From positions 1-49,978 of the forward strand of contig CACYGT010000019.1 in assembly GCA_902774075.1 (NCBI GenBank): 49,978 bases of DNA. The letters run 5' to 3'. Shown in pieces: positions 6,523 through 48,028 of this stretch (positions are counted from its first letter, which is position 1; each line of letters begins with the position of its first letter). The position numbers and the translations under genes are program-made. This DNA is from an uncultured Bacteroidales bacterium. Its GTDB lineage: Bacteria; Bacteroidota; Bacteroidia; Bacteroidales; Paludibacteraceae. The notes beneath the pieces were generated by a model. That model had not been told where the DNA came from, did no database searches, and worked only from the letters and a program-made list of their open reading frames with translations.

Positions 6523-8280
6523 TCACTCCGCCATAATCCGGTGTTCCAATTCCCGACATACATCGCAGTGCCCGCAAGGCGCTGCGTTTTTTTCACCAAA
6601 ATACGAGAGCAGCACCTGCTCGCGGCAGAACTGCGTCTGCTCGGCGTACTCGAGCATGGCATTGATCTTCGTCACAAAGCGCGCCTGGCGTTCCTCGAAG
6701 ATAGCGGACGAGAGGAAGATCTCCGTTTGGCGCTCCATAGTCATCGTCAGGCTGCAACCTATCGTGCGGGGGATATAGGTGATGATACCGCGTTGCGCCA
6801 ATGAGACGAGAATCTCATGATTTGTGATTTGTGATTTCTGTCGATCGGCAGAGCCGTGGTCATTTGTGATTTGGTCGGCCTCGCGGACGTATTGGAGTTC
6901 GGTGTAGATGCCCGAATAGGAACGCATCAGTTTGTCCAGCAGTTCGGCCTGCTCGAGCGAGAGGTTATAATCGCCCAATTGACGGCGCTCCACTTTGATC
7001 TGTACACGCGGCTGGGTCTCATGTTCTTCTTCAAAATCAATATACCCCGCCTGCGTGAGGATATGCAGGGCAGAGTAGGTCTGCAGCACGGGCAGATGCA
7101 TGACATGGCATAATTGGTCGATATGCAGTGTGAAACGATGCCCTAAACCGCTACCGGCACCGATCTGCAGAAAGTCCATCGTCTTGTGATAAACGGAGTT
7201 CACAAACTCCTTCGGCGGATAGGAATCGACGATCCGTTTCTTTATTTTGGCCGGGTCTTCGTTGGAGTTGAAGAGCAACACGGCATAGGCTGTCTGACCG
7301 TCTCTGCCGGCGCGTCCTGCTTCCTGATAGTACGACTCGAGATGGGACGGCAGGTCATAATGGATCACCACCCGCACGTCGGGCTTGTCGATGCCCATAC
7401 CGAAAGCATTAGTGGCAACCATCACACGAAGACCGCCCTCCGTCCATGCTTTCTGCCGTTCGTTGCGTTCCTTTGTCGTCAGTCCGGCGTGATAATAGTC
7501 AACCTGTAACCCATCCACCGTAACCCGTAACCACTCCGCTAACTCCTGCGCACGCTTTCTGTTACGCACATAGACGATCGCCGAACCGGGCACTTTGGTG
7601 AGGATATGCGCGACCTGTTCCTCTTTGCGCAGCGTGCGACGAACAACATAATAGAGGTTCTCGCGATGGAAAGACTTACGCAGCACATTGTGCGCTTTGA
7701 AGCCTAACTTGTCCTGTATGTCGTCGATCGTCTCGGGGGTGGCGGTAGCCGTGAGGGCCAGCACCGGCACGTCTGGCAGCAGCTCACGCACGGCGGCTAT
7801 GTTAAGGTAAGACGGCCGAAAATCATAGCCCCACTGACTAATGCAATGCGCCTCATCGACGGCTATCAAACCGATCGGCAGGTCCGCCAGACGTTTTCTG
7901 AACTCCTCGGACTCCAAGCGCTCGGGACTGCAATAGAGGAAATGGTACGGCCCGTAGAGGCAGTTATCCAGCGCCACACGCTGTTTGTCCCAACTCATAC
8001 CGGTATATACCGCCGCGGCGTGGATATTGCGTGCTTCGAGGTTAGCTACCTGATCCCGCATGAGCGCAATAAGCGGCGTGATGACTAGACAGAGGCGCTT
8101 GTTCAGATCGTCCTGCGAGAGCACGAGGGTAGGTACCTGAAAACAGATACTCTTGCCGCCGCCCGTAGGCATCAATGCGAGCGTATCCTTACCCGCTAAT
8201 ACAGAATCGATGATTTCCGACTGCAAGGGCCGAAAATCATCGTATCCGAAATACTTATGTAATGCCTCGCGGGGAGTCAT
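6523..8280 (-). CDS. recQ: RecQ family ATP-dependent DNA helicase
   Basis: This 585-residue 3'-5' SF2 helicase has Walker A at residues 39-44 (TGGGKS), DEAH at 142-145 followed by CISQWGYDFRPSY, TATAT near 178, and motif VI in YYQEAGRAGRDGQ near 317. The zinc site C552/C569/C572/C575 lies at the extreme C-terminus after the winged-helix-like region. In E. coli RecQ it directly follows the core. I believe the C-terminal layout is common in Bacteroidota RecQ. Residues about 469-491 are partly encoded by heptamer repeats and look inserted. It is downstream of gltX; the 22-bp spacer is itself heptamer repeat. There is no obvious Shine-Dalgarno sequence. Confidence 0.95.
   Translation of the reverse strand: MTPREALHKYFGYDDFRPLQSEIIDSVLAGKDTLALMPTGGGKSICFQVPTLVLSQDDLNKRLCLVITPLIALMRDQVANLEARNIHAAAVYTGMSWDKQRVALDNCLYGPYHFLYCSPERLESEEFRKRLADLPIGLIAVDEAHCISQWGYDFRPSYLNIAAVRELLPDVPVLALTATATPETIDDIQDKLGFKAHNVLRKSFHRENLYYVVRRTLRKEEQVAHILTKVPGSAIVYVRNRKRAQELAEWLRVTVDGLQVDYYHAGLTTKERNERQKAWTEGGLRVMVATNAFGMGIDKPDVRVVIHYDLPSHLESYYQEAGRAGRDGQTAYAVLLFNSNEDPAKIKKRIVDSYPPKEFVNSVYHKTMDFLQIGAGSGLGHRFTLHIDQLCHVMHLPVLQTYSALHILTQAGYIDFEEEHETQPRVQIKVERRQLGDYNLSLEQAELLDKLMRSYSGIYTELQYVREADQITNDHGSADRQKSQITNHEILVSLAQRGIITYIPRTIGCSLTMTMERQTEIFLSSAIFEERQARFVTKINAMLEYAEQTQFCREQVLLSYFGEKNAAPCGHCDVCRELEHRIMAE
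6820..6875. repeat. Heptamer array inside recQ (ATTTGTG family)
   Basis: Three 7-bp units at 6820-6840 (ATTTGTG, ATTTGTG, ATTTCTG) and a second patch of two units at 6862-6875 (ATTTGTG, ATTTGGT). They encode the low-complexity segment containing QITN twice in RecQ. The same word, reverse-complemented, recurs at 24838 and, directly, at 40613. Confidence 0.75.
7503..7530. repeat. Heptamer array inside recQ (CCCGTAA family)
   Basis: Four 7-bp units with exact register: CCTGTAA, CCCATCC, ACCGTAA, CCCGTAA. They encode RecQ residues around LRVTVDGLQV. Related GTAACC words occur at 46594-46621. Confidence 0.65.
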
Positions 8281-8283
8281 TGC

Positions 8284-8311
8284 AATGAATAATGAATAAT
8301 GATTAATGAAT
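8284..8311. repeat. Heptamer array forming the gltX-recQ spacer
   Basis: Four exact-register units: AATGAAT twice, AATGATT, AATGAAT. It covers the gltX stop codon and last codons as well as almost all of the 22-bp gap to the recQ start. Confidence 0.8.
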
Positions 8312-9868
8312 ATTATTCAAAGCAGCACGTACTCGTGCTAAGGTTTCTTCCTTTCCGAGCACATCGGTGATGGCCCAGATATGCGGACCGCGAGCTGCAC
8401 CGACCAGACAGATACGGAAGGCGTTCATCACGATACCGACACCGTACTCCTTGTCGGCGATCCAACCCATTACGATACCGTCAAGAGTCTCTGCGTCCCA
8501 GGACGGAACACCCTCCAGAATTGCCAACAACTCCGTCATATGACGCGGCGAGTCCTCTTTCCAGCGTTTCTTAAGCGATTTCTCGTCATACTCGGTGGGT
8601 GCCACAAAGAAGAAGTTCGTCTGCTCCCAGAGTTCCGGAACGAAGTTCACACGGTCTTTGGTCAAGCCAATGACTTTGGCAACGGTTTCTTTTTCGGGAT
8701 ACCGTGATACCGGAATACCGGCATCACGAAGGTGTTCTTCAAGAACGGGCCAGAACATCTGAGCTAGTTCCTCATTACTACGCAGTTGCAGGTACTGGTG
8801 ATTGAACCATTTGCCTTTCTCGTAGTCGAACTTGGCGCCGGACTTGGATACACGATCAAGGCTGAAATCCTTGATTAGTTCATCCATCGTGTACAGCTCT
8901 TGGTCGCCGCTTCCGTGCCAGCCTAAGAGGGCGAGGAAGTTAATGACTGCTTCCGGAAGGTATCCGCTCTCGCGATATCCGCTGGATACGGTGCCGTCTT
9001 TCTGATTATGGAACTCAAGCGGGAAGACAGGGAAACCGAGACGGTCACCGTCGCGTTTGCTGAGTTTGCCGTTTCCGTCCGGCTTGAGCAACAAGGGCAG
9101 GTGTGCAAATTGCGGCATCGTATCAGCCCATCCGAACGCACGGTAGAGCAGCACGTGCAGCGGAGCAGAAGGCAACCATTCCTCACCACGGATGACATGC
9201 GAGATCTCCATCAAGTGGTCGTCCACAATATTGGCGAGGTGATAGGTAGGCAGATCGTCTGCGGACTTATAGAGCACCTTATCGTCAAGGATATTGGAGT
9301 TAATCACTACCTCCCCGCGAATGAGATCGTGCACATGCACGTCCTCGTCGGGCTCTACTTTGAAGCGTACCACATATTTCTCTCCGCCATCCACGAGGCG
9401 CTGTACTTCCTCTGCCGGCATGGTCAAGGAGTTACGCATCTGCATACGCGTACGGGCATCGTATTGGAAATTAGGAATCTCCGCGCGCTTAGCCTCTAAC
9501 TCTTCGGGCGTATCAAAAGCGATATAGGCATGCCCGCTGTCCAACAGTTGCTTCACGTACTGATGGTAGATCTCGCGGCGCTCCGACTGACGATACGGAC
9601 CGTGCTCTCCGACAGCCTCAATCTGACCGTTGCGCATGCGCAGACCTTCGTCAATACCGATACCGAGCCACTCTAAGGCTTCCAGGATATATTCCTCTGC
9701 GCCGGGCACGAAACGGGTACTGTCCGTATCTTCGATACGCAGCAACATGTCACCGCCGTGCTGACGGGCAAACAGGTAGTTATACAAGGCAGTACGTACA
9801 CCGCCGATATGCAATGCGCCGGTAGGAGAGGGCGCAAAACGAACTCTAACTCTTCTTTCCATTTTCAT
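8303..9868 (-). CDS. gltX: Glutamate--tRNA ligase
   Basis: This 521-residue class I synthetase charges tRNA-Glu with glutamate. [16 protein letters not shown] carries the HIGH signature and GKLSKRDGD is the KMSKS equivalent. The C-terminal anticodon-binding half is present and the length is normal. ATG 9868 was chosen (MKMERR); ATG 9862 (MERR) is equally possible. A TTG further upstream at 9877 is less likely because it sits in the short leader. The last codons and stop lie in a heptamer array. A tRNA-Glu gene lies about 2 kb away. Confidence 0.95.
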
Positions 9869-9887
9869 TAAAAACAATTTTGCGCTG

Positions 9888-9919: not shown

Positions 9920-9924
9920 TTTTT

Positions 9925-9956: not shown

Positions 9957-9964
9957 CACCCGAT

Positions 9965-14174: not shown

Positions 14175-16238
14175 ATGACGATGCAAAGGTATTGTTTTAT
14201 ATCCTTATTTATAGTGATGTGCGCATGTGTGTGTGCGCAAGAGGTCAGTGATTTCCAGATTGAAGAGGTCACAGTTGTGCAACGCAAGAAAGGCAAGGTC
14301 AAGAGTCGTACGGAGGCTTTCGACACCGAGCGTATCAACGGCGAAGAACTCTGCCGCGCCGCGTGTTGTAACCTCTCCGAGGCGTTCGAAACGAATGCCT
14401 CGGTCGATGTCGCCTATTCCGATGCCGCTACCGGCGCCAAACAGATTCGTCTCTTGGGCCTAAGCGGCACGTATGTGCAGTTGATCCAAGAGAACACACC
14501 GGCCGTACGAGGTCTGGCGCAGAACTTCGGCCTCGAGTATATCCCCGGACCCTGGATGCAGTCTATTCAGGTCAGCAAAGGTACCTCTTCCGTCATCAAC
14601 GGCTACGAGGCAACCTCCGGACAGATCAATGTGGAACTCCTCAAGCCGCAGTTACAGAATCCGCTTTCCATCAACCTTATGTTCAATTCCGAACTGATGG
14701 CGGAGGCGAATCTCATGGGCGGTTGGCAAATTCCTCTCAAAGAGCACGAGCATCATCACGCCGAAGGCGAACACTGCCACCACGAATCGCTGTACACCGG
14801 TATATTAGCCCATTATGGTGGTAGTTATATGGCGATGGACGGCAATCATGACTCGTTTGCAGATATGCCCAAAGTACAGAACGCGAACCTTGCGAATCGC
14901 TGGTTCTACAAGCACGGTAATTACACGTTCCAAGCCTTCGTTCGCGGACTATATGATCGTCGTAGGGGCGGACAATTGGCGGACACGATAGCTAACCCTT
15001 ACCTCATCAACCTCAACACATGGCGTGTGGACGGATATATCAAGAACGGATATGTCTATGACGAAGAGTCGGGAAGCAGTGTGGCGGTCATCCTGGCGGC
15101 CAACCATCATTCGCTCAATAACAAGTACGGAGAGCGGGAGTGGGTGGCATCCCAGACCAATGCCTACCTCAATGCCATGTGGCAGGGTAATTTCGAAGGC
15201 ATCGGCGAGGTCGACAATGACCATCGTCTGACCGCTGGTCTCTCCGTCAATTTCGACCGCTATCTGGAGTCATTAACCATTAGCCATTCACCATTAGACC
15301 TTAACCGCTATGAGGTCGTGCCCGGTATCTTTGCCGAATACAACCTCAAGTATGACGATATGCTGAGTCTGGTAGCAGGCGTACGTGCGGACTATAGCAC
15401 CAAGTACGGTTTCTTCTTCACCCCGCGAATGAATATCCGCTATACGCCGTTTGAGTGGTGGACGCTGCGCGGAAGTGTGGGTATGGGATACCGTAGCCCG
15501 AACGCGATAGCGGACAATGCGAACATACTGCCGTCTAGCCGTGCAATCCTCTTGACGCCTTACGTCAAGCAGGAACAAGCCGTCAATGCCGGTCTCTCGA
15601 CGACCTTTGATATTCCGCTGGGTTCCAAGAACTTACAACTCTCGCTGGAGTATTACTACACCCATTTCCTCAACTCCCTCATCGTCGATATGGACAAGAG
15701 TTCGCAGGCGGTGTATATCTACAACCAGACAGATGTGGATGGTGCTAAATCGTTCGCGCATTGTGCACAGATAGAGGCGTCGATAGAGGTGCTCAGAGGC
15801 TGGACCTGGACGGCGGCTTTCCGCTATACGGACGTCGAACAAACGACCTTCAATGCGGCTGTCAATGCTTATCAACTGCGTCCGAAAGCGCTCTCTAACC
15901 GCTTCAAAGGGATCATCTCGACGAGTTATCAGACACCGCTTAAGAAATGGCAGTTTGACGTCACAGCTCAGTTTAACGGCGTAGGACGTATGCCGGACGG
16001 CTTTGAGCAACCTTTCACTTGGTATCCGCAACTCATGGCGCAGGTCACCAAGTATTTCCGTTCCTGCAGCCTCTATGTCGGAGCAGAGAACATGACCAAT
16101 TTCCGGCAAGATCCGTCTATCGTGGATAGTTTCCACCCGTACGGTCCGGACTTCGATGCGTCCATGGTGGTCGGCCCTACGACGGGTTGGAAAGTGTATG
16201 TAGGGTTCAGGTATGACTTAGAAAAAAAGGAGGATTAA
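14175..16238 (+). CDS. TonB-dependent outer membrane receptor with His-rich loop
   Basis: The 687-residue protein has a signal peptide ending CACVCA near residue 21, a plug domain (ASVDVAYSDAATGAKQIRLL and QSIQVSKGTSSVINGYEATSG) and a ~500-residue beta-barrel ending in an aromatic residue pattern (VYVGFRYDLEKKED). Residues about 190-205 form a cluster of ten His/Glu-rich positions (HEHHHAEGEHCHHE), which suggests binding of zinc, copper or nickel. There is no SusD partner, so metal uptake is more likely than glycan uptake (inference). The first ATG at 14175 is used; 14181 is an alternative. A heptamer array encodes residues near 366-375. The last codons form one arm of a bidirectional terminator. 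Confidence 0.88.
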   Translation: MTMQRYCFISLFIVMCACVCAQEVSDFQIEEVTVVQRKKGKVKSRTEAFDTERINGEELCRAACCNLSEAFETNASVDVAYSDAATGAKQIRLLGLSGTYVQLIQENTPAVRGLAQNFGLEYIPGPWMQSIQVSKGTSSVINGYEATSGQINVELLKPQLQNPLSINLMFNSELMAEANLMGGWQIPLKEHEHHHAEGEHCHHESLYTGILAHYGGSYMAMDGNHDSFADMPKVQNANLANRWFYKHGNYTFQAFVRGLYDRRRGGQLADTIANPYLINLNTWRVDGYIKNGYVYDEESGSSVAVILAANHHSLNNKYGEREWVASQTNAYLNAMWQGNFEGIGEVDNDHRLTAGLSVNFDRYLESLTISHSPLDLNRYEVVPGIFAEYNLKYDDMLSLVAGVRADYSTKYGFFFTPRMNIRYTPFEWWTLRGSVGMGYRSPNAIADNANILPSSRAILLTPYVKQEQAVNAGLSTTFDIPLGSKNLQLSLEYYYTHFLNSLIVDMDKSSQAVYIYNQTDVDGAKSFAHCAQIEASIEVLRGWTWTAAFRYTDVEQTTFNAAVNAYQLRPKALSNRFKGIISTSYQTPLKKWQFDVTAQFNGVGRMPDGFEQPFTWYPQLMAQVTKYFRSCSLYVGAENMTNFRQDPSIVDSFHPYGPDFDASMVVGPTTGWKVYVGFRYDLEKKED
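15271..15298. repeat. Heptamer array inside the TonB receptor gene
   Basis: Four exact-register units: CATTAAC, CATTAGC, CATTCAC, CATTAGA. They encode the segment SLTISHSPLD in an extracellular or strand region of the barrel. Confidence 0.8.
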
Positions 16239-16249
16239 CCTCCTTTTTT
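16223..16249. terminator. Bidirectional terminator holding both stop codons
   Basis: A perfect 11-bp stem (six A plus GGAGG pairing with CCTCC plus six T) closes a 5-nt loop, ATTAA at 16234-16238. The TAA of the receptor gene and the TAA of queH both lie in or at this loop. Each strand has a T-run after the stem. Confidence 0.9.
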
Positions 16250-16831
16250 CATGCTGTACTCGCACCCGCAATAGGTCTGATTATAAAAACCGTATTCCTT
16301 GAGTAAGACATTTCTGCGCTCTTGCAAGCCGTCTTTCCGCCAGTTCTGCGCCCAGAATCTGACTTCTGAATACTGAATACTGACAGCTTCTGCTGCCGCT
16401 TTGCCGGCAGCGTTAATCTGCTCCAGGCTCTTCCATCGCGACGAAGCGAGGGTTGTGGCGAAATAGGGTATTCCCAACTCCTGCGCTTTCTTGGCAGTCG
16501 CTATCAGGCGATGGTAAAAACACAGCTCGCAGCGCTTACCGCGTTCCGGCTCGTTCTCTAACCCGCACACCGCTTCCTGCCAGGTCTCGTGGTTATAGTC
16601 TTCATCTATCCATGGGATGCCAAGACTCTCCGCATGTCGCTTCGACTCGTTCTTACGGATCTCATATTCCTCGAGGGGGTAGATATTGGGGTTATAGTAA
16701 TAGATGACGGGCTCTATCCCGTGCGCCATCAGCCACTCCACGATCGCGCTCGAGCACGGCGCACAGCACGCATGCAGCAACACCCGCGTACACCCTTCCG
16801 GCACTATGATAGCACTCTGTTTACTCATCAT
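16235..16831 (-). CDS. queH: Epoxyqueuosine reductase QueH
   Basis: This 198-residue QueH (DUF208) enzyme reduces epoxyqueuosine to queuosine in tRNA and is the non-homologous alternative to QueG. The N-terminal HACCAPCSS cysteine motif, PNIYPLEEYEIRK, the central CELCFYHRL pair and the C-terminal YCGCEYS cysteines give the set of metal/cluster ligands of the family. ATG 16831 or 16828 follows the promoter at 16840-16871 by a few bases; a longer ORF to 16954 lies upstream of the promoter. A heptamer array codes for residues near VSIQYSEVRFW. It is convergent with the TonB receptor and overlaps it by 4 bp. Confidence 0.92.
   Translation of the reverse strand: MMSKQSAIIVPEGCTRVLLHACCAPCSSAIVEWLMAHGIEPVIYYYNPNIYPLEEYEIRKNESKRHAESLGIPWIDEDYNHETWQEAVCGLENEPERGKRCELCFYHRLIATAKKAQELGIPYFATTLASSRWKSLEQINAAGKAAAEAVSIQYSEVRFWAQNWRKDGLQERRNVLLKEYGFYNQTYCGCEYSMKKGG
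16356..16383. repeat. Heptamer array inside queH
   Basis: Four exact-register units: AATCTGA, CTTCTGA, then ATACTGA twice. Reverse-complemented they read as TCAGTAT-type words; the 47890 array has related CTGAATA words. Confidence 0.8.
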
Positions 16832-18470: not shown

Positions 18471-19276
18471 AACGCTCCTTCATAATAGGTCTGTGTTCTG
18501 TACTCTATACTCTATATTCCATCCCCTTACGGGCTGTGACTTATGACAGCCAGGAGGCGGTGACGATACAGGCGGCGCAGATACGTACAGGTGCGACCTT
18601 CACTAAGAAATGGAACAATGGCCTGCGCTTGGGCGTGAGTGAAGACCTGTGGTTTGATGTCTATAACTCAGAGGTGGGCGCTAACTTCCGTAAGTCCTAC
18701 ACAACCATCGACTTCGGCTACAAACCCATCGAGTACGTGCGTTTAGACCTCGGATATACGCTTAAAATCTTCGGCCCGCAGAGTACTTGGACTGACACAA
18801 AGAAAGCCGATCCGAACGAGTGGCTCAAGCATCGTGTGTTCTTCAGCGTAACAGGTTCATATACTTTCGATTACGCCAAGATCTACCTGCGTGAGCGCTT
18901 GCAGTTGGACATGCGTACGGACAGCGTCAACCTGTTGGAGCAGAACAAATACGATCTGTTCTTACGCAGTAAGATAGGTACGGAGTTCATCGTGCCCGGC
19001 AAACCCGTCAAGCCCTACCTGTGGGTCGAGTTGATCAACACGCTCAATGTGCCTGAGTATCAGCAACGTAACGGCCATCAGTTCATCTGCTCCGTACGTA
19101 CGCAAGCCGGCGTCAAATGGCGCGTGAGCAAACTCAGCAGCCTCGATTTCTTCTATCGTTTCACCTACGGCTACGACCGCGATATCAACATCACAAAGAA
19201 GAAAAATTACATTGAGTTGACGGAAGAGACGCTCTACATGCACTCCATCGGAATACGATATAATTTAGAATGGTAA
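18467..19276 (+). CDS. DUF2490-like outer membrane beta-barrel protein
   Basis: The 269-residue protein has a signal peptide (cleavage near residue 23, after LRA) and amphipathic strands ending in an aromatic residue (SIGIRYNLEW), as expected of a small outer-membrane barrel. NGLRLGVSEDLWFDVY and HRVFFSVTGSYTFDYAKIYLRERLQ fit the DUF2490 family. The start overlaps the DUF4956 stop (ATGA). The signal peptide is partly encoded by a heptamer array (18494-18521). Its role in the operon is unknown; export of the product or surface display is possible. Confidence 0.75.
   Translation: MKRSFIIGLCSVLYTLYSIPLRAVTYDSQEAVTIQAAQIRTGATFTKKWNNGLRLGVSEDLWFDVYNSEVGANFRKSYTTIDFGYKPIEYVRLDLGYTLKIFGPQSTWTDTKKADPNEWLKHRVFFSVTGSYTFDYAKIYLRERLQLDMRTDSVNLLEQNKYDLFLRSKIGTEFIVPGKPVKPYLWVELINTLNVPEYQQRNGHQFICSVRTQAGVKWRVSKLSSLDFFYRFTYGYDRDINITKKKNYIELTEETLYMHSIGIRYNLEW
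18494..18521. repeat. Heptamer array in the DUF2490 signal peptide
   Basis: Four exact-register units: TGTTCTG, TACTCTA twice, TATTCCA. It codes for the hydrophobic core residues around SVLYTLYSIP. Confidence 0.75.
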
Positions 19277-20820: not shown

Positions 20821-20862
20821 ATTTGATATTTGATTTTAGATTTTTGAAATTTGATGTTTTTA
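20821..20862. repeat. Heptamer array between DUF4353 gene and next ORF
   Basis: Six exact-register 7-bp units, three of them ATTTGAT and the others TTTAGAT, TTTTGAA and GTTTTTA. It fills the whole spacer between stop 20820 and ATG 20862. Confidence 0.85.
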
Positions 20863-21299
20863 TGAGACGAATTTTTAGTATATCAGTCTTTGCTCTTTGT
20901 TCTTTGCTCTTTGCTTCTTTATCCGCTCAGAGCCTGTTAACGCCCGAACAACTCGCCAAGCGCGAGCGGCATAAGAACCTCACGGTTAAGGAGTGGAATA
21001 CCGACTCCAAGACCAAGACTCGTTGGTTAGACCACCTGAAAGTATATGATAGCGAAGGACGCTGCATCGAGGAGATCGAGTACGCTACCTATGGCCAGAA
21101 AAGCCGTGTGACGTACAAGTACGACGACGTCACCGGCAAGGTCGCCGAGGAAGTGGAATACAACGACCGAAACCGACCTGTTCGTATCAAAAAATACGAG
21201 TGGAACGAAAATGGCACCAAGGCCAAGCAGTATAACTACCTGCCCAATGGCAAACTCTATTCCATCAAGCTCTACGAGTACATCTTTTCGGATAAATAA
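20862..21299 (+). CDS. Small secreted protein with YD-like repeats
   Basis: The 145-residue protein has a signal peptide ending ASLSAQ near residue 26. The mature part consists of short repeats with Tyr-Asp/Tyr-Glu turns (YKYDDVTGKV, VEYNDRNRPV, KKYEWNENGTKAK, YNYLPNGKLY), like YwqK or RHS-type strands, which usually form an open beta sheet. The function is unknown. The start at 20862 gives the signal peptide. It is the last gene of the VTC operon and is followed at once by a terminator. The signal peptide is encoded by a heptamer array. Confidence 0.72.
   Translation: MRRIFSISVFALCSLLFASLSAQSLLTPEQLAKRERHKNLTVKEWNTDSKTKTRWLDHLKVYDSEGRCIEEIEYATYGQKSRVTYKYDDVTGKVAEEVEYNDRNRPVRIKKYEWNENGTKAKQYNYLPNGKLYSIKLYEYIFSDK
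20889..20916. repeat. Heptamer array in a signal peptide
   Basis: Four exact-register units: TTTGCTC, TTTGTTC, TTTGCTC, TTTGCTT. They encode the hydrophobic core FALCSLLFA. Confidence 0.82.
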
Positions 21300-21997: not shown

Positions 21998-22025
21998 ATT
22001 CAAAGATTCAAAATTCAAGATTCAA
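21998..22025. repeat. Heptamer array flanking the IVP gene, left
   Basis: Four exact-register units: ATTCAAA, GATTCAA, AATTCAA, GATTCAA. It is the inverted counterpart of the right flank at 22430-22457. Confidence 0.85.
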
Positions 22026-22029
22026 AAAT

Positions 22030-22419: not shown

Positions 22420-22429
22420 TATCAATCTT

Positions 22430-22457
22430 TGAATTTTGAATTTTTAAATTTTAAATC
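22430..22457. repeat. Heptamer array flanking the IVP gene, right
   Basis: Four exact-register units: TGAATTT twice, TTAAATT, TTAAATC. Reverse-complemented they match the AATTCAA words left of the gene. AT-rich degenerate units continue to the mmdA start. Confidence 0.78.
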
Positions 22458-24034: not shown

Positions 24035-24346
24035 ATGTTATTGGCTATTACATCTGATACTTGGATCGTGACAGGCTTAGGCTTCGGCATCGTGCTGTTG
24101 CTGCTATTCTTCCTGGTGTATGTCATGAAGTTCTTCGGCTGGGTCATGCAGCTGATTGAGCGCAAACCCAAGAAGCAAGAATCAGGAGTCAAGAGTCAGG
24201 ACGATACCGCCGCGGCTATCGCAACAGCGCTCTATCTGGCTTCAGAAGCAGGCCATCACGACCAACCTACCGCCATCATCGCTGCGCAGGCACGTGAGAC
24301 AGCGTGGAATGAAAAAGCAAACGGACTGAATAATATGGGCTTTTGA
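24035..24346 (+). CDS. oadG: OadG-like small subunit of the Na+-pumping decarboxylase
   Basis: The 103-residue protein has one membrane helix (WIVTGLGFGIVLLLLFFLVYV, about residues 10-30), a charged linker, and a C-terminal tail DDTAAAIATALYLA. In OAD-type pumps this subunit assembles carboxyltransferase and beta subunits and binds a metal. Part of the linker (KKQESGVKSQDD) is encoded by a heptamer array. Its last codons and stop (ATG GGC TTT TGA) lie in the first copy of a 45-bp duplication. The tail resembles that of the OadA-like protein at 28005. Confidence 0.82.
   Translation: MLLAITSDTWIVTGLGFGIVLLLLFFLVYVMKFFGWVMQLIERKPKKQESGVKSQDDTAAAIATALYLASEAGHHDQPTAIIAAQARETAWNEKANGLNNMGF
24179..24199. 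repeat. Heptamer array inside oadG
   Basis: Three exact-register units: GAATCAG, GAGTCAA, GAGTCAG. It encodes the linker after the membrane helix. Confidence 0.65.
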
Positions 24347-24425
24347 CCATATTAATCGTTTCTTGAATAAGAATAATCTATGGGCTTTTGACCATATTAA
24401 TCGTTTCTTGAATAAGAATAATCTA
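24334..24425. repeat. Perfect 45-bp tandem duplication at the oadG/biotin carrier junction
   Basis: The sequence at 24334-24380 matches 24379-24425 exactly (period 45). Copy 1 contains the end and stop of oadG plus the spacer. Copy 2 sits where the first codons of the biotin carrier gene should be. It is unrelated to the heptamer arrays. Confidence 0.95.
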
Positions 24426-24463: not shown

Positions 24464-24838
24464 GTGACGGTAAACGGCAAAGTATACGAAGTAGAGACCG
24501 AGGCTGCTGTTCCTGCCGCTAAACCGGCACCTAAAGCGGCTCCGGAGGCACCGAAAGCAACTCCGGCACCTAAGGCAGAAGCTCCTAAAGCAGAGGCTAA
24601 ACCTGCTGCAACTCCTGCAGCCGGTGGTGTGCAAGTAAAGAGCCCGCTGCCCGGATCGGTCATCAAAGTGCTTGTGGCTGAAGGTCAGGCGGTTAAGAAA
24701 GGCGACACGTTGCTTACGCTCGAGTCCATGAAGATGGAGAACGCCATCATGGCAGAGGCAGACGGCACAGTGAAACAGATCGCTGTTACTCCGGGCCAGA
24801 ACGTCATGCAAGATGATTTACTGATTGTGCTTGGTTAA
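24464..24838 (+). CDS. mmdC: Biotin carboxyl carrier subunit, 5' end disrupted
   Basis: Read from GTG 24464 the protein has 124 residues: TVNGKVYEVE, an Ala/Pro/Lys-rich hinge (about 12-55) and a full biotinyl domain with ESMKMENAI, biotin Lys90. In frame upstream the reading continues back as KCAVEEIEAGKTK to codon 24422, then meets TAA (24419-24421). No ATG exists for the usual N-terminus (MKxxKYxINGxxY...), about 12-16 residues of which are missing. Copy 2 of the 45-bp duplication occupies that place. The carrier shuttles CO2 from MmdA to the beta subunit. Either GTG 24464 is used, or the gene is damaged, or the assembly is wrong here. Confidence 0.75.
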   Translation: MTVNGKVYEVETEAAVPAAKPAPKAAPEAPKATPAPKAEAPKAEAKPAATPAAGGVQVKSPLPGSVIKVLVAEGQAVKKGDTLLTLESMKMENAIMAEADGTVKQIAVTPGQNVMQDDLLIVLG

Positions 24839-24872
24839 ATCACAAATCACCAATTACAAATCACAAATAAAT
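24838..24872. repeat. Heptamer array between biotin carrier and oadB
   Basis: Five exact-register units: AATCACA, AATCACC, AATTACA, AATCACA, AATAAAT. It is the reverse complement of the ATTTGTG words in recQ and pheT and fills the 41-bp spacer. Confidence 0.85.
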
Positions 24873-29653: not shown

Positions 29654-30733
29654 ATGAAAAAGTACAATTTTAATGCGGGTCCGAGTATTCTCCCGCAAGA
29701 AGTGATCAAACAGACAGCAGATGCTGTTATCGATTTTCAGGGAGAAGGCCTGTCGGTTCTGGAGATTAGTCACCGTGCTAAGTATTTCCAACCCGTCATG
29801 GACGAAGCAGAATCCTTGGTAAAGGAGCTGCTGAACGTGCCGGAGGGTTACCGCGTGCTGTTCCTCGGCGGTGGTGCCAGCTTGCAGTTCTGCATGGTGC
29901 CGTTTAATATGCTGGAGAAGAAAGCAGCGTACCTGAATACCGGTGTGTGGAGTAAGAAAGCGCTCAAGGAAGCCAAAGGCTTCGGTGAGGCCATCGAAGT
30001 AGCAGCCAGCACGGACAGTATCCCGACAGACTACGAGATCCCGCAAGATGCCGACTACTTCCATATCACAACCAACAACACCATCTTCGGTACCGAGATC
30101 AATGACGAGAAACTCGCTGAGATTTATCGCAAGAAAGGTAATGTGCCTTTGGTAGCCGATATGTCTTCCGACATCCTCAGCCGTCCGATCGACGTCAGCC
30201 AGTACGATATCATCTACGGCGGTGCGCAGAAGAACCTCGCGCCGGCGGGTGTGACCTTCGTCATAATCAAAGAGTCCTGTCTTGGTAAAGTAAGTCGTTA
30301 TATTCCGACGATGCTGAACTATCAGACCCATATCGATGGCGGTTCGATGTTCAATACACCTCCTGTACTGCCTGTTTATACGGCTGTGCTGACCCTTCGT
30401 TGGCTCAAAGCGAACGGCGGTGTGAAGTGGATTGAGGAGCGCAACAAAGCGAAAGCGGACTTGCTCTACAAGTGCCTCGATGAGTCGAAACTCTTTATGC
30501 CGACCATCTCCAAGAAAGAGGACCGCAGCCGCATGAATATCTGCTTCGTCTTCAAGCCGGGCTTTGAGGATCTGCAGGATGACTTCTTCAAGTTCGCTAC
30601 CGAGCGCGGTATGGTAGGTATCAAGGGTCACCGTCTGGTAGGCGGTTTCCGTGCTTCCTGCTACAACGCAATGGATCTCGAAGGTGTACAGGCATTGGTA
30701 GATTGCATTAAGGAATACGAGAAACTTCATTAA
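29654..30733 (+). CDS. serC: Phosphoserine aminotransferase
   Basis: This 359-residue class V PLP enzyme converts 3-phosphohydroxypyruvate to phosphoserine, with a role in vitamin B6 synthesis in some bacteria. It starts [32 protein letters not shown] carries the phosphate-binding region, [15 protein letters not shown] contains the PLP lysine, and [15 protein letters not shown] is the C-terminal signature. The length is normal. serA follows after a 32-bp heptamer array. Confidence 0.96.
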
Positions 30734-30768
30734 ATTGAAAATTGAAGATTGAAAATTGAAGATTTATG
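30734..30768. repeat. Heptamer array between serC and serA
   Basis: Five exact-register units alternating ATTGAAA and ATTGAAG, the last (ATTTATG) containing the serA start codon. It fills the entire spacer. The CAATTTT array at 44881 is the reverse complement of the same word. Confidence 0.88.
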
Positions 30769-35368: not shown

Positions 35369-35911
35369 CTAAAGTCGCTCTAACTCAATGACTTCCAAAT
35401 TATCTATCTTTTTACCGTCTATGGTAAATCGCAGTAGTGTTTGGCAGGGCTGCCAGCCTTGTATGCCTGCTGCGCCCGGATTCATAGTGAGGAACTTAAA
35501 GAGCGGATCGTACTGCACTTTCAGAATATGGCTGTGTCCGCACACAAAGAGGTCAATGACATTTACCATTTGTTCATTTACCATTTGTTCATTTTCTTTG
35601 GCTTCCAAACTTTTCTTAAACCAAGGAATCAGCCAAGGGTTGTATTTACCGGGGTATCCGCCGATATGGGTCATAAGGACGTTCACTTCTTCGACACGAA
35701 AACGATAGAACTCGCTTAACGAATAACGCACCTCTCCGCTGTCCATGTTGCCATACACAGCACGTGTGGGTTTGAACTCCCGAAGACGTCGTAAGACATC
35801 CTCGGAGCCTATATCACCCGCGTGCCAGATCTCATCTACATCTTTGAAATGCTCCAAGACGCGTTTGTCTAAGAGCCCGTGCGTATCTGAGAGAAGACCG
35901 ATGCGAGTCAT
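35369..35911 (-). CDS. Metallophosphoesterase (YfcE/MJ0936 family)
   Basis: The 180-residue protein has the metal-binding set of the calcineurin-like family: GLLSDTHG (residues 5-12), HAGDIGSEDVLR, YGNMDSGE, VLMTHIGG and CGHSHI. It is the small bacterial phosphodiesterase group with broad in vitro activity; the natural substrate is unknown. A 15-bp direct repeat doubles the peptide EQMVN near residues 112-121 and matches the style of the heptamer arrays. It overlaps the GldF-like gene by 4 bp (ATGA) and ends the pheT operon. Confidence 0.9.
   Translation of the reverse strand: MTRIGLLSDTHGLLDKRVLEHFKDVDEIWHAGDIGSEDVLRRLREFKPTRAVYGNMDSGEVRYSLSEFYRFRVEEVNVLMTHIGGYPGKYNPWLIPWFKKSLEAKENEQMVNEQMVNVIDLFVCGHSHILKVQYDPLFKFLTMNPGAAGIQGWQPCQTLLRFTIDGKKIDNLEVIELERL
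35565..35594. repeat. 15-bp direct repeat in the phosphoesterase gene
   Basis: The 15-bp unit made of CATTTAC plus CATTTGTT occurs twice, giving the peptide EQMVN twice. It alternates 7- and 8-bp words, so it is a sister type of the heptamer arrays. Confidence 0.7.
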
Positions 35912-36594
35912 TTGGTGGTGAGTTTATCGATGATAAATATAGCGGCAACAATGGCTATAACAGCTGTACCGACAAAGACAGCTACGTCGCGCAAGTCAAT
36001 CACACCTCGCGAGAGAGCAGAGTAGTGGTCCTGAAGGAGTACCCAGTAAAGCACAAAACAAGCGAGCGTGCCGGTTATGAAACAAACGATCTGGCTCTTA
36101 CTGAAACTCGCGCAGAGCAGGCCTATCGCCATGAACGTGCTGCTCAAGAGGATCAGTCCGATGAAGGATCCCAAGAAAGCGCCGCTGTCTAAGTTATCCA
36201 TAGGTTCTGCCATGTATGCCACTACAAAATAATGCACAAAACAGGGCAGCAGACCGATGAGCACCAGTGTCCACGCCGCGAAATACTTGCCGAGCATGAT
36301 ACGGGTAAGTGACACCGGTTTGGTGCGAATAAGGTCCCATATACCGGATTGACGTTCTTCGGCCAACAGACGCATGGTGAGCGCGGGGCAGAGAAGCATA
36401 AACAGCCAAGGACTGAGTTGGAACAGTCCGTCCACTTGGGCGTATCCCGAGTCAATGATATTCCACTGACCCGGGATTACCCAAAGGAAAAGACTGATAG
36501 CTAATTGGTACAAGGCAATCACGATGTACGCGATAGGCGTAGAGAAATAATATGTAAGTTCCTTCTTATACACCTTACACTTTACACCATACAC
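35908..36594 (-). CDS. gldF: ABC-2 type permease, GldF-like
   Basis: The 228-residue membrane protein has six segments. KKELTYYFSTPIAYIVIALYQL and AEERQSGIWDLIRTKPV match GldF, the permease associated with gliding and T9SS-bearing Bacteroidota. No ATPase or GldG gene adjoins it. The annotated GTG 36594 lies in a heptamer array; GTG 36573 (VYKKEL) would match the usual family N-terminus better. No ATG exists. Function in this organism is uncertain, as many non-gliding Bacteroidales keep GldF-like permeases. Confidence 0.8.
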   Translation of the reverse strand: MYGVKCKVYKKELTYYFSTPIAYIVIALYQLAISLFLWVIPGQWNIIDSGYAQVDGLFQLSPWLFMLLCPALTMRLLAEERQSGIWDLIRTKPVSLTRIMLGKYFAAWTLVLIGLLPCFVHYFVVAYMAEPMDNLDSGAFLGSFIGLILLSSTFMAIGLLCASFSKSQIVCFITGTLACFVLYWVLLQDHYSALSRGVIDLRDVAVFVGTAVIAIVAAIFIIDKLTTK

Positions 36595-36596
36595 TA
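36569..36596. repeat. Heptamer array at the gldF start
   Basis: Four exact-register units: TACACCT, TACACTT, TACACCA, TACACTA. On the gene strand it supplies in-frame GTG codons used as start candidates. The same word family fills 47994-48028. Confidence 0.85.
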
Positions 36597-37899: not shown

Positions 37900-37938
37900 A
37901 ATTATTTGATTTTAAACTAGTTATCTAGACAACTGGAA

Positions 37939-37954
37939 TTCTAGAATTCTAGAA
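37939..37954. repeat. 16-bp perfect palindrome in the prfC-nupG spacer
   Basis: TTCTAGAATTCTAGAA is its own reverse complement and is formed from repeated 8-bp AATTCTAG words; CTAG words extend on both sides from 37917. It could be a protein-binding site, or a repeat array of the heptamer type with period 8. Confidence 0.6.
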
Positions 37955-39484: not shown

Positions 39485-41997
39485 TAGCGTAGGGTAGCGT
39501 TAAATTGCTCTTCGAAAGTCCGTTTGAGTTTGGCCATAACTGCTTCTATCTGCGTATCTTTGAGCGTGTTCTCCGGATCCTGCAGAATGAAAGAGAGCGC
39601 ATAGGATTTCTTGCCCGGCTCTAAGTTCTTGCCTTCATATACATCGAACAAGAACACATTTCGCAGCAGTTTGCGCTCAGCCGCAAAGGCAGCACGAGCC
39701 AGGTCAGCAAACTCTACCGTGCTGTCAACCAGCAACGCAAAGTCGCGCTTCACTTCCGGATATTTAGGCAGGTCATTGATGACAGCCTTGTATTGTTTGT
39801 TCTGCTTAAGCAGGGCCTTCCAATCGAGGTCTGCATAATATACCTCTTGGTCTATATCAAACGTTTTCAGCACTTTACGAGCCGCAATACCGATATAACC
39901 CAGCGCTTTGCCGTTCGCGGCTTTGAGCACCATACCATCTTGGAACAACTCGTTCTCCAGGCGCTCAAGGCTCACTTTAGCTACATCCACGCCCAGACGG
40001 GTAAGGATATTATTGACATACGCATGGAGTTGATAGAACGTCGTCTTCTCCTCGCGGCGTACCCAACTGAGCGGGGCTTTGTTTCCCGTTAACCACAATC
40101 CCAAGTGCGGCTCCTCGGAATAACGGGTTAGTGGGTTAGTGGTTAGTGGGTTAGTGGTCTCCTCTAATCCGCTCATCCGCTCATCCACTAATCCTTTGTA
40201 ATGGTAGCAGTTACCGAACTCATAGAACTTGAGGTCGTTGTTCTTGCGGTTCGCATTCCGTGCGATGGACTCCAGGCCGCCAAAGAGCAGCGTTTGACGC
40301 ATCACACCCAGATCTTGACTGAGAGGGTTCATGATCTTTACGCACTCAGCCAGCGGCAGTTGCTGGAGTGGCTCGTAATAACTTACCTTGGTCAGCGAGT
40401 TATTGAGGATCTCATTGAATCCCTGTGCAGTCAACTGCTCGGCGATCTTACGGCGCAGTTTCTCCGGATCGGGTTTGACGCCGTAGGCCAGGCTGGTATT
40501 GAGTTTCTCGGGGAACTCGACGTTGTCGTAACCGTAGATACGCAAGATATCTTCCACTACATCGCACTCGCGCTGTACATCTACGCGATAGCGCGGGATG
40601 GCTAAACGCCATATTTGTGATTTGTCATTGGTAATTGGTGATTTCTCTACAATCTCTATCTCGAGGGCTTTGAGAATGGTCTCAATCGTGTCCTCTCCGA
40701 TCGCTTTGCCAATAAGGCTGTTCACTCGCCGGATATCAATCGTCACAGGCCAAGGATCAAAACTCGTCTGTGCCTGATCGGTAATCTCCATCGCTACCTG
40801 TCCGCCTGCTACTTCCTGAATGAGCAAGGCTGCGCGTTTCAATACATACAACGTGTTGTTCGGATCACAACCGCGCTCATAGCGGAAGGAGGCATCCGTC
40901 TGCAATTGATGGCGACGGCTGGTCTTACGAATGGTCACAGGATCAAAATAAGCCGACTCAAGGAATACGTTCTTCGTGTTCTCAGTCACGCCGCTCTCCA
41001 GACCACCGAACACACCGGCGATACACATTGCTTCCTCGGCGTTAGCAATCATCAGGTCGCGTTCGTTCATCTCGCGCTCCACACCATCAAGGGTAGTAAA
41101 TTTCTCGCCTGCTTTCGCATAACGCACATGGATCTCGTTGCCTTTTATCTTATCGGCATCGAATGCATGGAGCGCCTGTCCGCATTCGTGGAGTACGAAG
41201 TTCGTCACATCCACTACGTTATTGATCGGTCTTAAGCCAATCGCCAGCAGGCTGTTCTTAAGCCACTCCGGAGACTCTTTGATCTCTACACCCTTGATAC
41301 TCACGCCCGAATAACGCGGACATGCATCCGGTGCATCTACAATGACCTTAATAGGCAACTCATTGTTATCAATTTTAAAGGCCTCCACGCTCGGTTTGGT
41401 TAATTGGATATTCTGTCCGTGCGCCTGATAGTAGGCGTAAAGATCCCTCGCAACACCATAGTGACTCGCCGCATCCGACCTGTTCGGTGTGATATCTACT
41501 TCAATGATCGTGTCATCCTCCACATGGTAGTACTCTCGTGCCGGCATTCCGACAGGCGTATCTTCGGGCAGCACGATAATACCGGCGTGGTCTGTACCTA
41601 CACCTATCTCATCCTCGGCGCATAACATTCCATAGGAATCCTCGCCGCGAAGTTTGCCTTTCTTGATAGTAAAACTCTCTTCGCCGTCATAGAGCACCGT
41701 GCCGATAGTGGCTACAATCACTTTCTGTCCGGCGGCTACGTTGGGTGCTCCGCACACGATAGGCAGGGGCTCGCCCTCGCCAATATTGACTTTTGTGAGA
41801 TGTAAATGGTCGGAGTTTGGGTGGGGTTCACAACTCAGCACTTCGCCTACTACCAGGCCTTTCAGTCCTCCACGAATCGTCTCTACAGTCTCTACCGTGC
41901 CTACCTCCAGACCGATAGAGGTAAGAATCTTTGCTACAGTCTGAGCATCATCTTTCAGATCGATGTAACGCTTTAACCAATTGTACGAAATATTCAT
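39484..41997 (-). CDS. pheT: Phenylalanine--tRNA ligase beta subunit
   Basis: The 837-residue subunit starts [14 protein letters not shown]. It has the EMAP-like tRNA-binding domain ([21 protein letters not shown]), B3/B4 editing domain, B5 and the C-terminal anticodon-binding FDX-ACB domain ([12 protein letters not shown] ... [10 protein letters not shown]). It pairs with PheS, which is not in the window. Two segments are encoded by short tandem arrays: [12 protein letters not shown] near residue 455 and [18 protein letters not shown] near 615. It is the first gene of the five-gene unit that ends with yfcE. Confidence 0.96.
40128..40192. repeat. Octamer-type arrays inside pheT
   Basis: GGGTTAGT-type words (8, 8, 7 and 8 bp) from 40126 to about 40157, then GCTCATCC-type 8-bp words from about 40170 to 40192. 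They encode the doubled peptide TTNPL and the preceding DERMSGLEE. They are of the same general type as the heptamers with period 8. Confidence 0.7.
40613..40647. repeat. Heptamer array inside pheT (ATTTGTG family)
   Basis: Five exact-register units: ATTTGTG, ATTTGTC, ATTGGTA, ATTGGTG, ATTTCTC. They share the first word with the recQ array at 6820. Confidence 0.8.
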
Positions 41998-44126: not shown

Positions 44127-44883
44127 AAGCATTTAAAAATGAATAGTTTGTATCTAAAAGTATCGCCACCAGGCTGCATTTGTTGATAGTACAGCCTTCC
44201 GGCACTTTGATCTCGTTGTTAATAGCGTTTTGGCCGCTCACCGGAATGCCAAGCGGTTGTTCAAAAGCGGCATGGCGCAACATGTGGCGGTGGTAATATT
44301 CCATATTCACCGACCCGTCCGGCATCGCTTGTACACCTAACACACTGTCTTCTACCAGCCATACCGCCAGTTTGGCTTCTTGCGTGAGGTTGAAGTGGAC
44401 CGTAAAAGCAATCGCATCTTTTTGTTCATTGGCCTCACAGGTCATATTGAGCGCCGGAGCCAAGGTCGTATCGGCCGATAGATGCGATAACTGAGCCGCC
44501 CACGTTGCAGGATCCGTGAAGTACGAACCATCGGTTACTTGCCAGTCGATATTGCCCGTCGGGAAAGGAGTAGTAACTACACCGCCCATAAACTGATAAA
44601 CCGAGTCCGCTGCAGGGCAGGTATAGTCATACACGCCTTGTGTCCAGTGGTTAGAAGCGGGATGAAGCGCCACCGTGATCAGTTTGTCGCCGTATATCGT
44701 ATGCAGCTCGTCTGCCGTCTGTGCCGCCGTCGGGCAGTTCACACAACGGAAACCGGTGAACTCCAGCAGCAGATGTACCCGTTCAGTCTCCGGGTCCGGC
44801 AAGCGGATATAGCGGTCTTCTTCCTTAATCACCTCGCATCCGACCAGCACTACGGCCAACACTATGTACAAGAACTTTTTCAA
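44086..44883 (-). CDS. Omp28-related lipoprotein, short form
   Basis: The 265-residue protein has a lipobox LVGC (Cys16) followed by acidic residues. The Omp28 domain has LLLEFTGFRCVNCPTAAQ, a CxxC at Cys47-Cys50, and TLAPALNMTCEA. No ATG is available. The start is TTG 44883, which belongs to a heptamer array (CAATTTT on the other strand), so the repeat provides the initiation codon. It is a paralogue of the 42080 gene in the same operon, and lies two genes from a periplasmic TlpA. Confidence 0.82.
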   Translation of the reverse strand: MKKFLYIVLAVVLVGCEVIKEEDRYIRLPDPETERVHLLLEFTGFRCVNCPTAAQTADELHTIYGDKLITVALHPASNHWTQGVYDYTCPAADSVYQFMGGVVTTPFPTGNIDWQVTDGSYFTDPATWAAQLSHLSADTTLAPALNMTCEANEQKDAIAFTVHFNLTQEAKLAVWLVEDSVLGVQAMPDGSVNMEYYHRHMLRHAAFEQPLGIPVSGQNAINNEIKVPEGCTINKCSLVAILLDTNYSFLNAYEKKVLISDSSSD

Positions 44884-44936
44884 TTTTCAATTTTCAATTT
44901 TCAATTTTCAATTTTCAGTTTCCAATCACCAATTAT
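44881..44936. repeat. Eight-unit heptamer array between DUF6029 and Omp28 genes
   Basis: Eight exact-register units: CAATTTT five times, then CAGTTTC, CAATCAC, CAATTAT. It contains the TTG start of the Omp28 gene and the end of the DUF6029 gene. It is the longest array in the window. Confidence 0.92.
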
Positions 44937-46621: not shown

Positions 46622-46622
46622 C

Positions 46623-47093: not shown

Positions 47094-47094
47094 A

Positions 47095-47994
47095 TCACTT
47101 GTAGTTTTTGCGCATGTCGCGGTAGTCTCTGCGTGCTTCATAGACCGCTTTCGCACTGCCTTGCTTGCCTTGAACAAGGAACAGCAGCGCTGCTGCATAA
47201 TCCAGGAAGAAACGTACACTGAGCACCAACCAACGATATTTGCTGTTTTTATAGATCATTACTAAGTTATTGCGGAAATTGAGATACGTCTTGCGCGGGT
47301 TGTCATAACTGAGCGAACCGCCGCCGAGGTGATACACCTCACTCTCCGGCACACAGGCCAGTTTCCAACCTTTGTTGCGCATACGCCAGCACAGGTCTAT
47401 CTCTTCCATGTGCGCAAAGAACGCTGCGTCCAGACCTCCCATCTCCTTATATACTTTCGTACGCACGCACATACATGCACCCGACGTCCAATCCACGTTA
47501 ACGATGTTATCATACTGCCCCTTGTCTTCTTCCACATGACTCAGCACACGTCCGCGGCAGTAGGGATAACCTAATGCATTCACAAATCCGCCTGCTGCGC
47601 CGGCGTGTTCGAAGTACGTACGGTCCCGCCAACTCCGTATCTTAGGCTGCACAGCCGCTACGTCGGGGTGCGCGTCAAGATAAGCGAGTAGGGGATCGAG
47701 CCATCCTTCCGGCGTCTCTACGTCCGAGTTCAGCAGGACGACATATTCGTCGTCCACCTGTGCGATAGCGCGGTTATAGCCTTCTGCGAAGCCGTAGTTC
47801 TTATCCAGCACGATCGTCTTCACGCTCGGGAACTCCTTCTTCAGCACCTCCAGGCTCTCATCCGTACTCCCGTTATCGGCTACGATCAACTGAACACTGA
47901 ATGCTGAAGACTGAATACTCTTCACCACCGACGGCAAGTACGTCTTCAACAACTCCGCCCCGTTCCAGTTTAATATGATGACACTACATTTCAT
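47095..47994 (-). CDS. Family 2 glycosyltransferase
   Basis: The 299-residue GT-A enzyme has MKCSVIILNWNGAELL at the start, the NGSTDESLEVLKK nucleotide-sugar motif, LLNSDVETPEGWLDPL (acidic metal motif) and EEIDLCWRMRNKGW. A C-terminal hydrophobic stretch (WLVLSVRFFLDYAAALLFLV) suggests membrane association. It resembles rhamnosyltransferase-like GT2 proteins (WsaF/RfbN type). ATG 47994 follows a heptamer array that fills the gap from the upstream acyltransferase gene. A second array encodes SIQSSAFSVQ near residue 30. The substrate is unknown. Confidence 0.92.
   Translation of the reverse strand: MKCSVIILNWNGAELLKTYLPSVVKSIQSSAFSVQLIVADNGSTDESLEVLKKEFPSVKTIVLDKNYGFAEGYNRAIAQVDDEYVVLLNSDVETPEGWLDPLLAYLDAHPDVAAVQPKIRSWRDRTYFEHAGAAGGFVNALGYPYCRGRVLSHVEEDKGQYDNIVNVDWTSGACMCVRTKVYKEMGGLDAAFFAHMEEIDLCWRMRNKGWKLACVPESEVYHLGGGSLSYDNPRKTYLNFRNNLVMIYKNSKYRWLVLSVRFFLDYAAALLFLVQGKQGSAKAVYEARRDYRDMRKNYK
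47890..47917. repeat. Heptamer array inside the glycosyltransferase gene
   Basis: Four exact-register units: CTGAACA, CTGAATG, CTGAAGA, CTGAATA. Related to the ATACTGA words in queH. Confidence 0.82.
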
Positions 47995-48028
47995 ACACCT
48001 TACACCGTACACCTTACACCTTACACCA
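47994..48028. repeat. Heptamer array between acyltransferase and glycosyltransferase genes
   Basis: Five exact-register units: TACACCT, TACACCG, TACACCT twice, TACACCA. It fills the gap, overlapping the end of the acyltransferase gene and the GT2 start. Confidence 0.9.

Follow-up and report, generated by a model that had tools for sequence, protein, structure and literature searches.

Young, many-worded heptanucleotide arrays at gene junctions and in coding loops of a Paludibacteraceae genome and its genus

The stretch analysed here (the window) is the 49,978-base contig CACYGT010000019.1 (C19) of an uncultured Bacteroidales bacterium of the family Paludibacteraceae, the genome of which (G000) is 1.8 Mb and 85.75% complete. 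Short tandem arrays with a 7-nucleotide step are scattered through the window, in the spacers between genes, against start and stop codons, and within coding sequences (CDS) that include pheT; the genes were called from codon usage, and some of their starts will be misplaced. The original prediction, made from the letters of the sequence, had listed 19 heptamer arrays and three relatives of period 8 or 15. Tandem Repeats Finder (TRF), at a minimum score of 30, returned a period-7 row at all 19 heptamer sites and a period-8 or period-15 row at all three relatives, so that 22 of the 22 sites were detected, some weakly, such as that noted at 7503. The arrays are young: they arise, change word or unit number, and vanish between closely related species. 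They are best read as a many-worded variant of the known bacterial heptanucleotide repeats.

The TRF scores were kept out of the statistics, for which a stricter lag-match score was used. At thresholds of 8, 10 and 12 the window contains 20, 18 and 11 arrays of period 7 or 14, against means of 2.35, 0.35 and 0.04 and maxima of 6, 2 and 1 in 100 codon-preserving shuffles of it. At threshold 12, in a 447 kb sample of G000 (the window and 20 further stretches), arrays with period 7 number 76 and those with period 14 number 11, where 20 shuffles preserving the proteins, the codon counts and the dinucleotides of the spacers average 1.40 and 0.10. A comparison with shuffled sequence had been suggested with the original prediction, and shuffled sequence lacks similar numbers. 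Other periods are also raised over the shuffles in the 447 kb, namely 8 (8 arrays against 0.05), 9 (8 against 0.60) and 11 (8 against 0); the step of 7 is thus the principal but not the sole one. Words are shared between sites, as had been claimed: the 87 arrays of G000 use 41 distinct words, while letter-shuffled words give a mean of 75.7 and a minimum of 66, and the top words occur 7 times each. ATTTGTG recurs at 6818, 40613 and, reversed, 24837; ATTGAAA at 30732 and, reversed, 44877; and TACACCT at 36569 and 47994. The arrays are 72% A+T, in a window with a G+C content near 50%. A model in which a conserved 4-mer core is followed by a free 3-mer spacer was tried and rejected, the variable columns being without clear clustering (even in two-column cases, and adjacent in 5 of 10 three-column cases with 2 expected).

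The comparisons between species draw on 178 genomes of the genus, one per species, identified here by G-numbers. Eight pairs of species with an aligned DNA identity of 86-94% gave 87 comparisons, from which 29 without aligned flanks were excluded. Only 10 of the remaining 58 retain both word and size; seven have the same word with another unit number, 12 have a different array at the site and 29 have no array (23 with nothing and six retaining one copy of the word); the classes were assigned automatically, inspection by eye would shift some of those in 'different' or 'none', and some sites enter the count from both sides. The sites are therefore mostly without the same sequence in orthologues, as the prediction would have it, the comparison being one within the genus rather than with distant genera. 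With such turnover between close species, the birth, replacement and loss of arrays can be read from genome pairs. The pair alignments contain 530 gaps, 56 of them with clean flanks and a length of at least 3 bp. Among these, array changes include two gaps of 7 bp, two of the three of 28 bp and two of 35 bp, and the non-array gaps include one each of 14, 21 and 28 bp. Relative to G188, G168 has a clean 28-bp insert next to a start codon.

The same picture is seen at individual loci of the window. An alignment of 6.7 kb with G002 (77.5% identity) has seven gaps of at least 9 bp; all but one, a 16-bp gap at 39467-39482, fall on array sites. In an oriented alignment of pheT and its neighbours over the 30 best-matching loci, what fills a given loop varies among species between heptamers of different kinds, other repeats and G+C-rich inserts. 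At the junction of the genes at 44926-46569 and 44086-44883, 12 of 19 relatives have no array, six have other words, and G030 has the word of the window in fewer units. Of 175 genomes with a match to the 30732-30764 junction, the 30 best were compared. Five have a period-7/14 array, four one of period 8, one of period 9 and one of period 16; seven junctions are short and array-free, and 12 are longer and were scored as array-free, although three of these (G030, G097 and G161) show short heptamer runs by eye. Heptamers of the words ATTGAAA, TTTGAAA, ATTCATT and AATTAAA are found there across the species, besides 8-mers, one 9-mer, one 14-mer, one 16-mer and inserts of other kinds. The array of the window and the two-unit form in G030 and G097 are exactly one 14-bp duplication apart, in one direction or the other, and local change thus suffices at this site.

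Some of these places also receive inserts of other kinds. The junction homologous to window positions 30733-30766 holds two unrelated larger inserts, each in a few species: one in G169, G192 and G032, and a hairpin-bearing one in G144 and G015 (L281, L284, L296; L297, L298). The site therefore accepts many kinds of insert. Short dispersed insertions of several other types, among them hairpin elements rich in G+C and 16-mers of the AGACCGCT type, are found in pheT loops (L095, L099, L083, L089, L098, L093) and at junction J1 (L064, L067, L070, L071, L077), occupying some loops and junctions that also take heptamer arrays.

Table. Tandem arrays of the window, with their gene context and comparisons with other genomes
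Array	Position	Context and comparisons
TGATTTG (ATTTGTG family), period 7	6818..6837	within CDS 6523-8280 (-)
CCGTAAC, period 7, weak, only 2.1 clean copies	7518..7532 (noted as 7503)	within CDS
AATGAAT, period 7	8284..8312	covers 22-bp spacer of two co-directional genes
CATTAAC/CATTAGC, period 7/14	15271..15306	within CDS 14217-16238
CTGA words, period 7	16355..16383	within CDS 16235-16831 (-)
TCTATAC, period 7	18490..18516	spacer (codon-usage gene call)
ATTTGAT, period 7	20821..20859	begins directly after stop codon of CDS 19270-20820
TCTTTGC, period 7/14	20887..20920	spacer shared with the 20821 array, adjoins downstream start (codon-usage gene call)
ATTCAAA, period 7/14	21998..22027	immediately upstream of ATG
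TTTGAAT, period 7	22428..22456	19 bp upstream of ATG, CDS 22476-24032
Imperfect, period 7	24169..24198	within CDS 24035-24346
AAATCAC, period 7	24837..24868	41-bp spacer, CDS 24464-24838 / 24880-26055; hairpin (stem score 9) abuts right end
ATTGAAA/ATTGAAG, period 7	30732..30764	fills 32-bp junction, CDS 29654-30733 / 30766-31686; 30-species comparison
15-bp relative (7+8)	35560..35594	within phosphoesterase CDS 35369-35911; two gaps in G002, 9 and 12 bp
TACACCT, period 7/14	36569..36595	two-gene junction; 10-bp gap in G002; junction without array in G200
GAATTCTA, period 8	37936..37954	spacer; 14-bp gap in G002
GGGTTAGT, 8/15 bp	40125..40158	within pheT (PheRS beta); different sequence in G002
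ATCCGCTC, period 8	40160..40194	within pheT; 21-bp gap in G002
ATTTGTG, period 7	40613..40644	within pheT; 18-bp gap in G002; loop bears other inserts in other species
TTTTCAA (gene sense ATTGAAA), period 7, top TRF score 86	44877..44926	fills 42-bp gene junction
TAACCCG, period 7	46596..46622	gene junction; in relatives, no array or a different one
CTGA words, period 7/14	47889..47919	within CDS 47095-47994 (-)
TACACCT, period 7	47994..48027	spans 19-bp spacer and end of adjacent CDS
Tandem duplication of 45 bp, perfect (TRF score 184), unlike the heptamer arrays	24334-24425	end of CDS 24035-24346

The arrays have a preferred length, close to the four units described for them in the original prediction. 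Among 257 arrays from G000, G117 and 17 other genomes of the genus the mode is 32 bp, or about 4.5 units, and 112 are 30-34 bp, although the score threshold contributes to the fall-off at short lengths. Perfect runs alone fall in number from 14 bp and rise slightly again at 24-27 bp. A preference for four units in GGGAATC repeats has been linked to quadruplexes (Rehm 2015, PMC4692102). At least four GGG runs on one strand are present in one of 87 arrays in G000, four of 112 in G117 and four of 58 in the 17 other genomes, leaving 248 of the 257 without them, and the 230 with no GGG or CCC at all keep the 32-bp mode. The preference for about four units therefore needs no quadruplex, which cannot be its general reason.

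The 87 arrays of G000 are divided between CDS (43), co-directional spacers (36), convergent spacers (5), divergent spacers (2) and an edge (1). An even division between spacers and CDS had been proposed; by count it holds (44 and 43), while per base it fails, with 1.17 arrays per kb in spacers and 0.10 in CDS, a difference of about 11 times. Per kb of spacer there are 1.51 arrays in co-directional, 1.35 in convergent and 0.43 in divergent ones. Arrays were oriented by their C-poor strand, those with equal C and G not being orientable. The sense strand of co-directional spacers is the C-poor one in 21 cases and the other in 11 in G000, and in 35 against 11 in G117; within CDS there is no bias (18 against 18 in G000, and 16 sense against 18 antisense in G117). 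A bias in replication strand is not claimed, with 37 against 9 on the G-rich strand in G000, yet 27 against 26 in G117.

At least one array is present in 14 of 17 single 20-kb samples from other genomes of the genus, the samples from G002, G003 and G025 having none. At an equal score there are 0.195 arrays per kb in G000, 0.286 in G117, 0.171 in the 17 other genomes and 0.128 in 13 genomes of the species pairs, and 0.094 in two related metagenome-assembled genomes of Bacteroidales, RUG505 and RGIG5062 (the latter from Paludibacteraceae of roe deer rumen). Alongside its dominant AATTAAA family, G117 has another, GGGTGTA/GGTGTAT (L161, L164-L166, L169). Outside the genus, no arrays are present in 60 kb from three other families or in the 150 kb examined of E. 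coli K-12; 25 kb pooled from seven small loci within the order contains one, and 50 kb of a Trichormus plasmid two. Across the phylum, 15 of 395 genomes and 8 of 171 genera carry GGTGAAA arrays, G000 among them, and the reversed pattern, which is also a heptamer array, is present in 6 of 395 genomes. A genome of a different family picked for its GGTGAAA arrays (G501) has 0.053 arrays per kb. Arrays of this kind thus extend past the genus. A search of viral contigs with two words found 2 and 3 contigs, which gives no sign of wide carriage by phages.

Hairpins lie mainly on one side of the arrays, most clearly in G000. A set of 207 arrays from 1.22 Mb of genus sequence was used, 186 of them oriented (20 have equal C and G, and one is near an end), and stems were scored as matches minus 2 per mismatch. 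Within 36 bp of the C-poor strand, a stem score of at least 8 is reached upstream of 20 of the 186 arrays, downstream of two, and at five of 930 random positions. This asymmetry was reached in none of 10,000 strand-flip permutations. Seventeen of the 26 hairpins scoring at least 7 abut the array at a gap of 0-1 nucleotides, and in G000 those of that score number 13 upstream and none downstream. Arrays of the species pairs, with longer loops permitted, give 11 against 3 of 53, some counted in two species. No one-sided excess was found beside arrays of period 8-18, and G501 has hairpins at one against one of its 16 arrays. The stems vary in sequence from locus to locus among the hairpins inspected. 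Alignments of pheT in G006 and G167 and of junction J2 in G030 suggest that the second arm of the hairpin may be newly made. That it is always new is not claimed, clear cases not having been obtained at G200 29273 and 8154 or at G030 57269.

There is, in our judgement, an even chance that the arrays are mutational footprints of recurrent slippage or template-switch synthesis with a 7-nucleotide step, and not functional elements. A DNA polymerase, in replication or in the repair of gaps or breaks, would slip or switch template in steps of 7 nucleotides, often laying down about four units together (28 bp added, 32 bp seen). Synthesis may be assisted by a hairpin that the new strand forms immediately behind its extending 3' end; such a nascent-strand hairpin would account for the position of the hairpins against the 5' side of the C-poor strand. 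An array already present might sometimes be used as template, or for annealing, when another is made, and its word would spread in this way. Selection would clear arrays from promoters and from most coding sequence, with junctions and protein loops tolerating them.

Several observations weigh against this interpretation. Slippage as such names no enzyme and leaves the step size of 7 unaccounted for. The asymmetry of the hairpins is smaller in the relatives (at a score of at least 7, 7 upstream against 4 downstream in G117 and 6 against 2 in 19 other stretches), and a second set of 34 arrays from five genomes did not confirm it (2 against 1 at score 7, 0 against 1 at score 8). The 20 upstream hairpins are not fully independent, since L061 4553 and L063 15448 are one orthologous locus, and the hairpin arm at G200 29273 could come from an ordinary codon variant in G171. 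Another difficulty is an exact 26-bp array with an odd unit, present in 52 of the 178 genomes and at 22 places in G117, which exceeds what purely local slippage would be expected to give and hints at copying.

Copying and pasting of very short mobile sequences of about 26-33 bp by a dedicated enzyme, for example a RAYT-like HUH transposase, would account for such copies, and we consider it an unlikely origin for the arrays in general. The exact 26-mer is also multicopy in G144 (16) and G167 (13), while its reversed-pattern control is found 0 times in the 178 genomes. The G117 copies are part of a family about 33 bp long, and the flanks of 20 of them are unrelated right up to the ends of the array. 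Identical stretches of at least 30 bp exceed those of unit-permuted arrays (10 permutations each), with 28 against 12-25 in G117 and 7 against 0-5 in G000, but those of 22 or 26 bp are within the permuted range. The ends of the arrays shift by a few bases, many words stand side by side in one genome, and no common palindrome is seen among the inspected hairpin stems, which differ by locus. The array at 30732 has a shorter form of the same word in relatives, and the words at junction J2 look by eye like the local start-codon region. G000 encodes a 373-amino-acid relative of RAYT-like Y1 transposases with a long C-terminal part (L189:1234-2355, contig C16) and a DHLHIVL motif. Y1_Tnp was found in 68 of the 178 genomes (G000 and G117 included), in 48 of them above the cut-off. 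Many genomes of the genus have reading frames of a length near that of the G000 protein with weak Y1_Tnp matches, which may be a distinct family. Copying and pasting in the strict sense was set aside, the order-permutation test being mixed, and is retained as a rival. It is probable that local birth and copying both occur. The dedicated spreading mechanism of the original prediction is therefore not established, the 26-mer hinting at copying while the sharing test is mixed and local change is enough at 30732; a dedicated spreading machine is possible.

It is doubtful that a lineage-specific, strand-directed DNA synthesis in this genus extends folded-back 3' ends with about four heptamers of the C-poor strand, with existing arrays as donors, in the manner of telomerase or polymerase theta. 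In its templated insertions (the subject of PMC4912351 and PMC11292364), polymerase theta extends 3' ends that have snapped back or formed stem-loops, and switches template there, but it is a eukaryotic end-joining enzyme and the likeness is one of manner only. If true, such a generator would be undescribed, and would remodel gene junctions and protein loops at a rate above that of point mutation.

That a reverse transcriptase with an RNA template, like that of DRT10, extends 3' ends by heptamers in the manner of telomerase and leaves the arrays as scars is very improbable. DRT10 adds short repeats by means of an A-B-A' template with a four-base realignment segment (PMC12632851), and the one-sided hairpins and the C-poor strand suggest a directed extension of 3' ends. 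On the other hand, the DRT10 system studied makes 9-nucleotide repeats, although motif length differs among systems (PMC12632851), and there are dozens of words per genome. RVT_1 was found in 35 of the 178 genomes and in neither G000, at its stated completeness, nor the array-rich G117, which makes a generator based on reverse transcriptase unlikely as a general cause, although distant reverse transcriptases would escape RVT_1.

It is equally hard to credit that the arrays are functional elements, for instance sites ahead of start codons with a translational or post-transcriptional role, of the kind proposed for TAACTGA repeats. Many arrays do reach from an operon junction up to the start codon, and the sense excess of the C-poor strand in co-directional spacers would fit such a role. 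The near-equal density in convergent spacers counts against a role linked to start codons. Against functional elements in general stand the half or so of the arrays that lie within CDS without strand bias and the small number of close-species comparisons (10 of 58) that retain word and size. Lastly, chance, codon usage or protein repeats as the origin of the arrays are refuted by the 76 arrays found against 1.4 in codon-preserving shuffles, and the sequence sampled from E. coli and from the three other families is free of arrays, even if the shuffles also show some similarity at lags 6, 12, 15, 18 and 21.

Tandem heptanucleotides are known from other bacteria. The short tandemly repeated repetitive (STRR) sequences of heterocystous cyanobacteria are dispersed and use few fixed words. 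They differ from the present arrays in host, the cyanobacterial sequence compared being the Trichormus plasmid with its two arrays, but the parallel drawn with them in the original prediction is apt in that the arrays are akin in kind to repeats of cyanobacteria and elsewhere. TAACTGA direct repeats are carried by Beggiatoaceae, some Cyanobacteria and five Bacteroidetes including Paludibacter (MacGregor 2015, PMC4679880). Like the present arrays they are tandem heptanucleotides, mostly intergenic and often found before start codons, at sites that vary among relatives. Unlike them, they have one fixed word, related heptamers being rare in the main genome studied (PMC4679880); here there are 41 words in 87 arrays, about half of which are in CDS. 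They stand in forward orientation before starts; here many arrays are at starts with the sense excess already given, yet the density in convergent spacers is similar. Three exact tandem copies of TAACTGA are absent from G000 and were found in three of the 178 genomes, and the reversed control in one.

The GGGNATC and GGGGA(T/C)T repeats of Xanthomonas and Nostoc (Rehm 2015, PMC4692102) resemble the present arrays in their period of 7, their preference for four units, and their concentration between aligned open reading frames and under-representation between divergent ones. Compared with GGGAATC heptamers, the present arrays are nearly all without four G runs and are mostly not kept between species. 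More generally, heptanucleotides are the top class of long simple sequence repeats (SSRs) with units of 5-11 nucleotides in most genomes, and the contact length of the polymerase has been proposed as the reason for 7 (Mrazek 2007, as cited in PMC4679880 and PMC4692102). Those SSRs are described as longer than expected in the genome, while the present arrays are short, imperfect and many-worded. Both the excess and the changes in unit number (7 of 58 comparisons) that mark this general class are found here. Calling the arrays an undescribed system, as the original prediction did, was accordingly too strong, with heptanucleotide repeats reported as over-represented in many bacteria (PMC4679880, PMC4692102). 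A many-worded, fast-turning heptamer system in Bacteroidales was not described in the titles of the best literature matches, the coverage of which mostly leaves out subscription journals and the closest of which are MacGregor 2015 and Rehm 2015.

What distinguishes these arrays is that they are A/T-rich and nearly all unable to form quadruplexes, with a preference for about 4.5 units and a turnover between close species, in a genus represented by 178 genomes. They expose an unusual mode of mutation, known in kind and still unexplained, in a gut-type bacterium and many of its sister species. Operon junctions and insertions in coding loops of such genomes may be mutational debris rather than regulatory signals.

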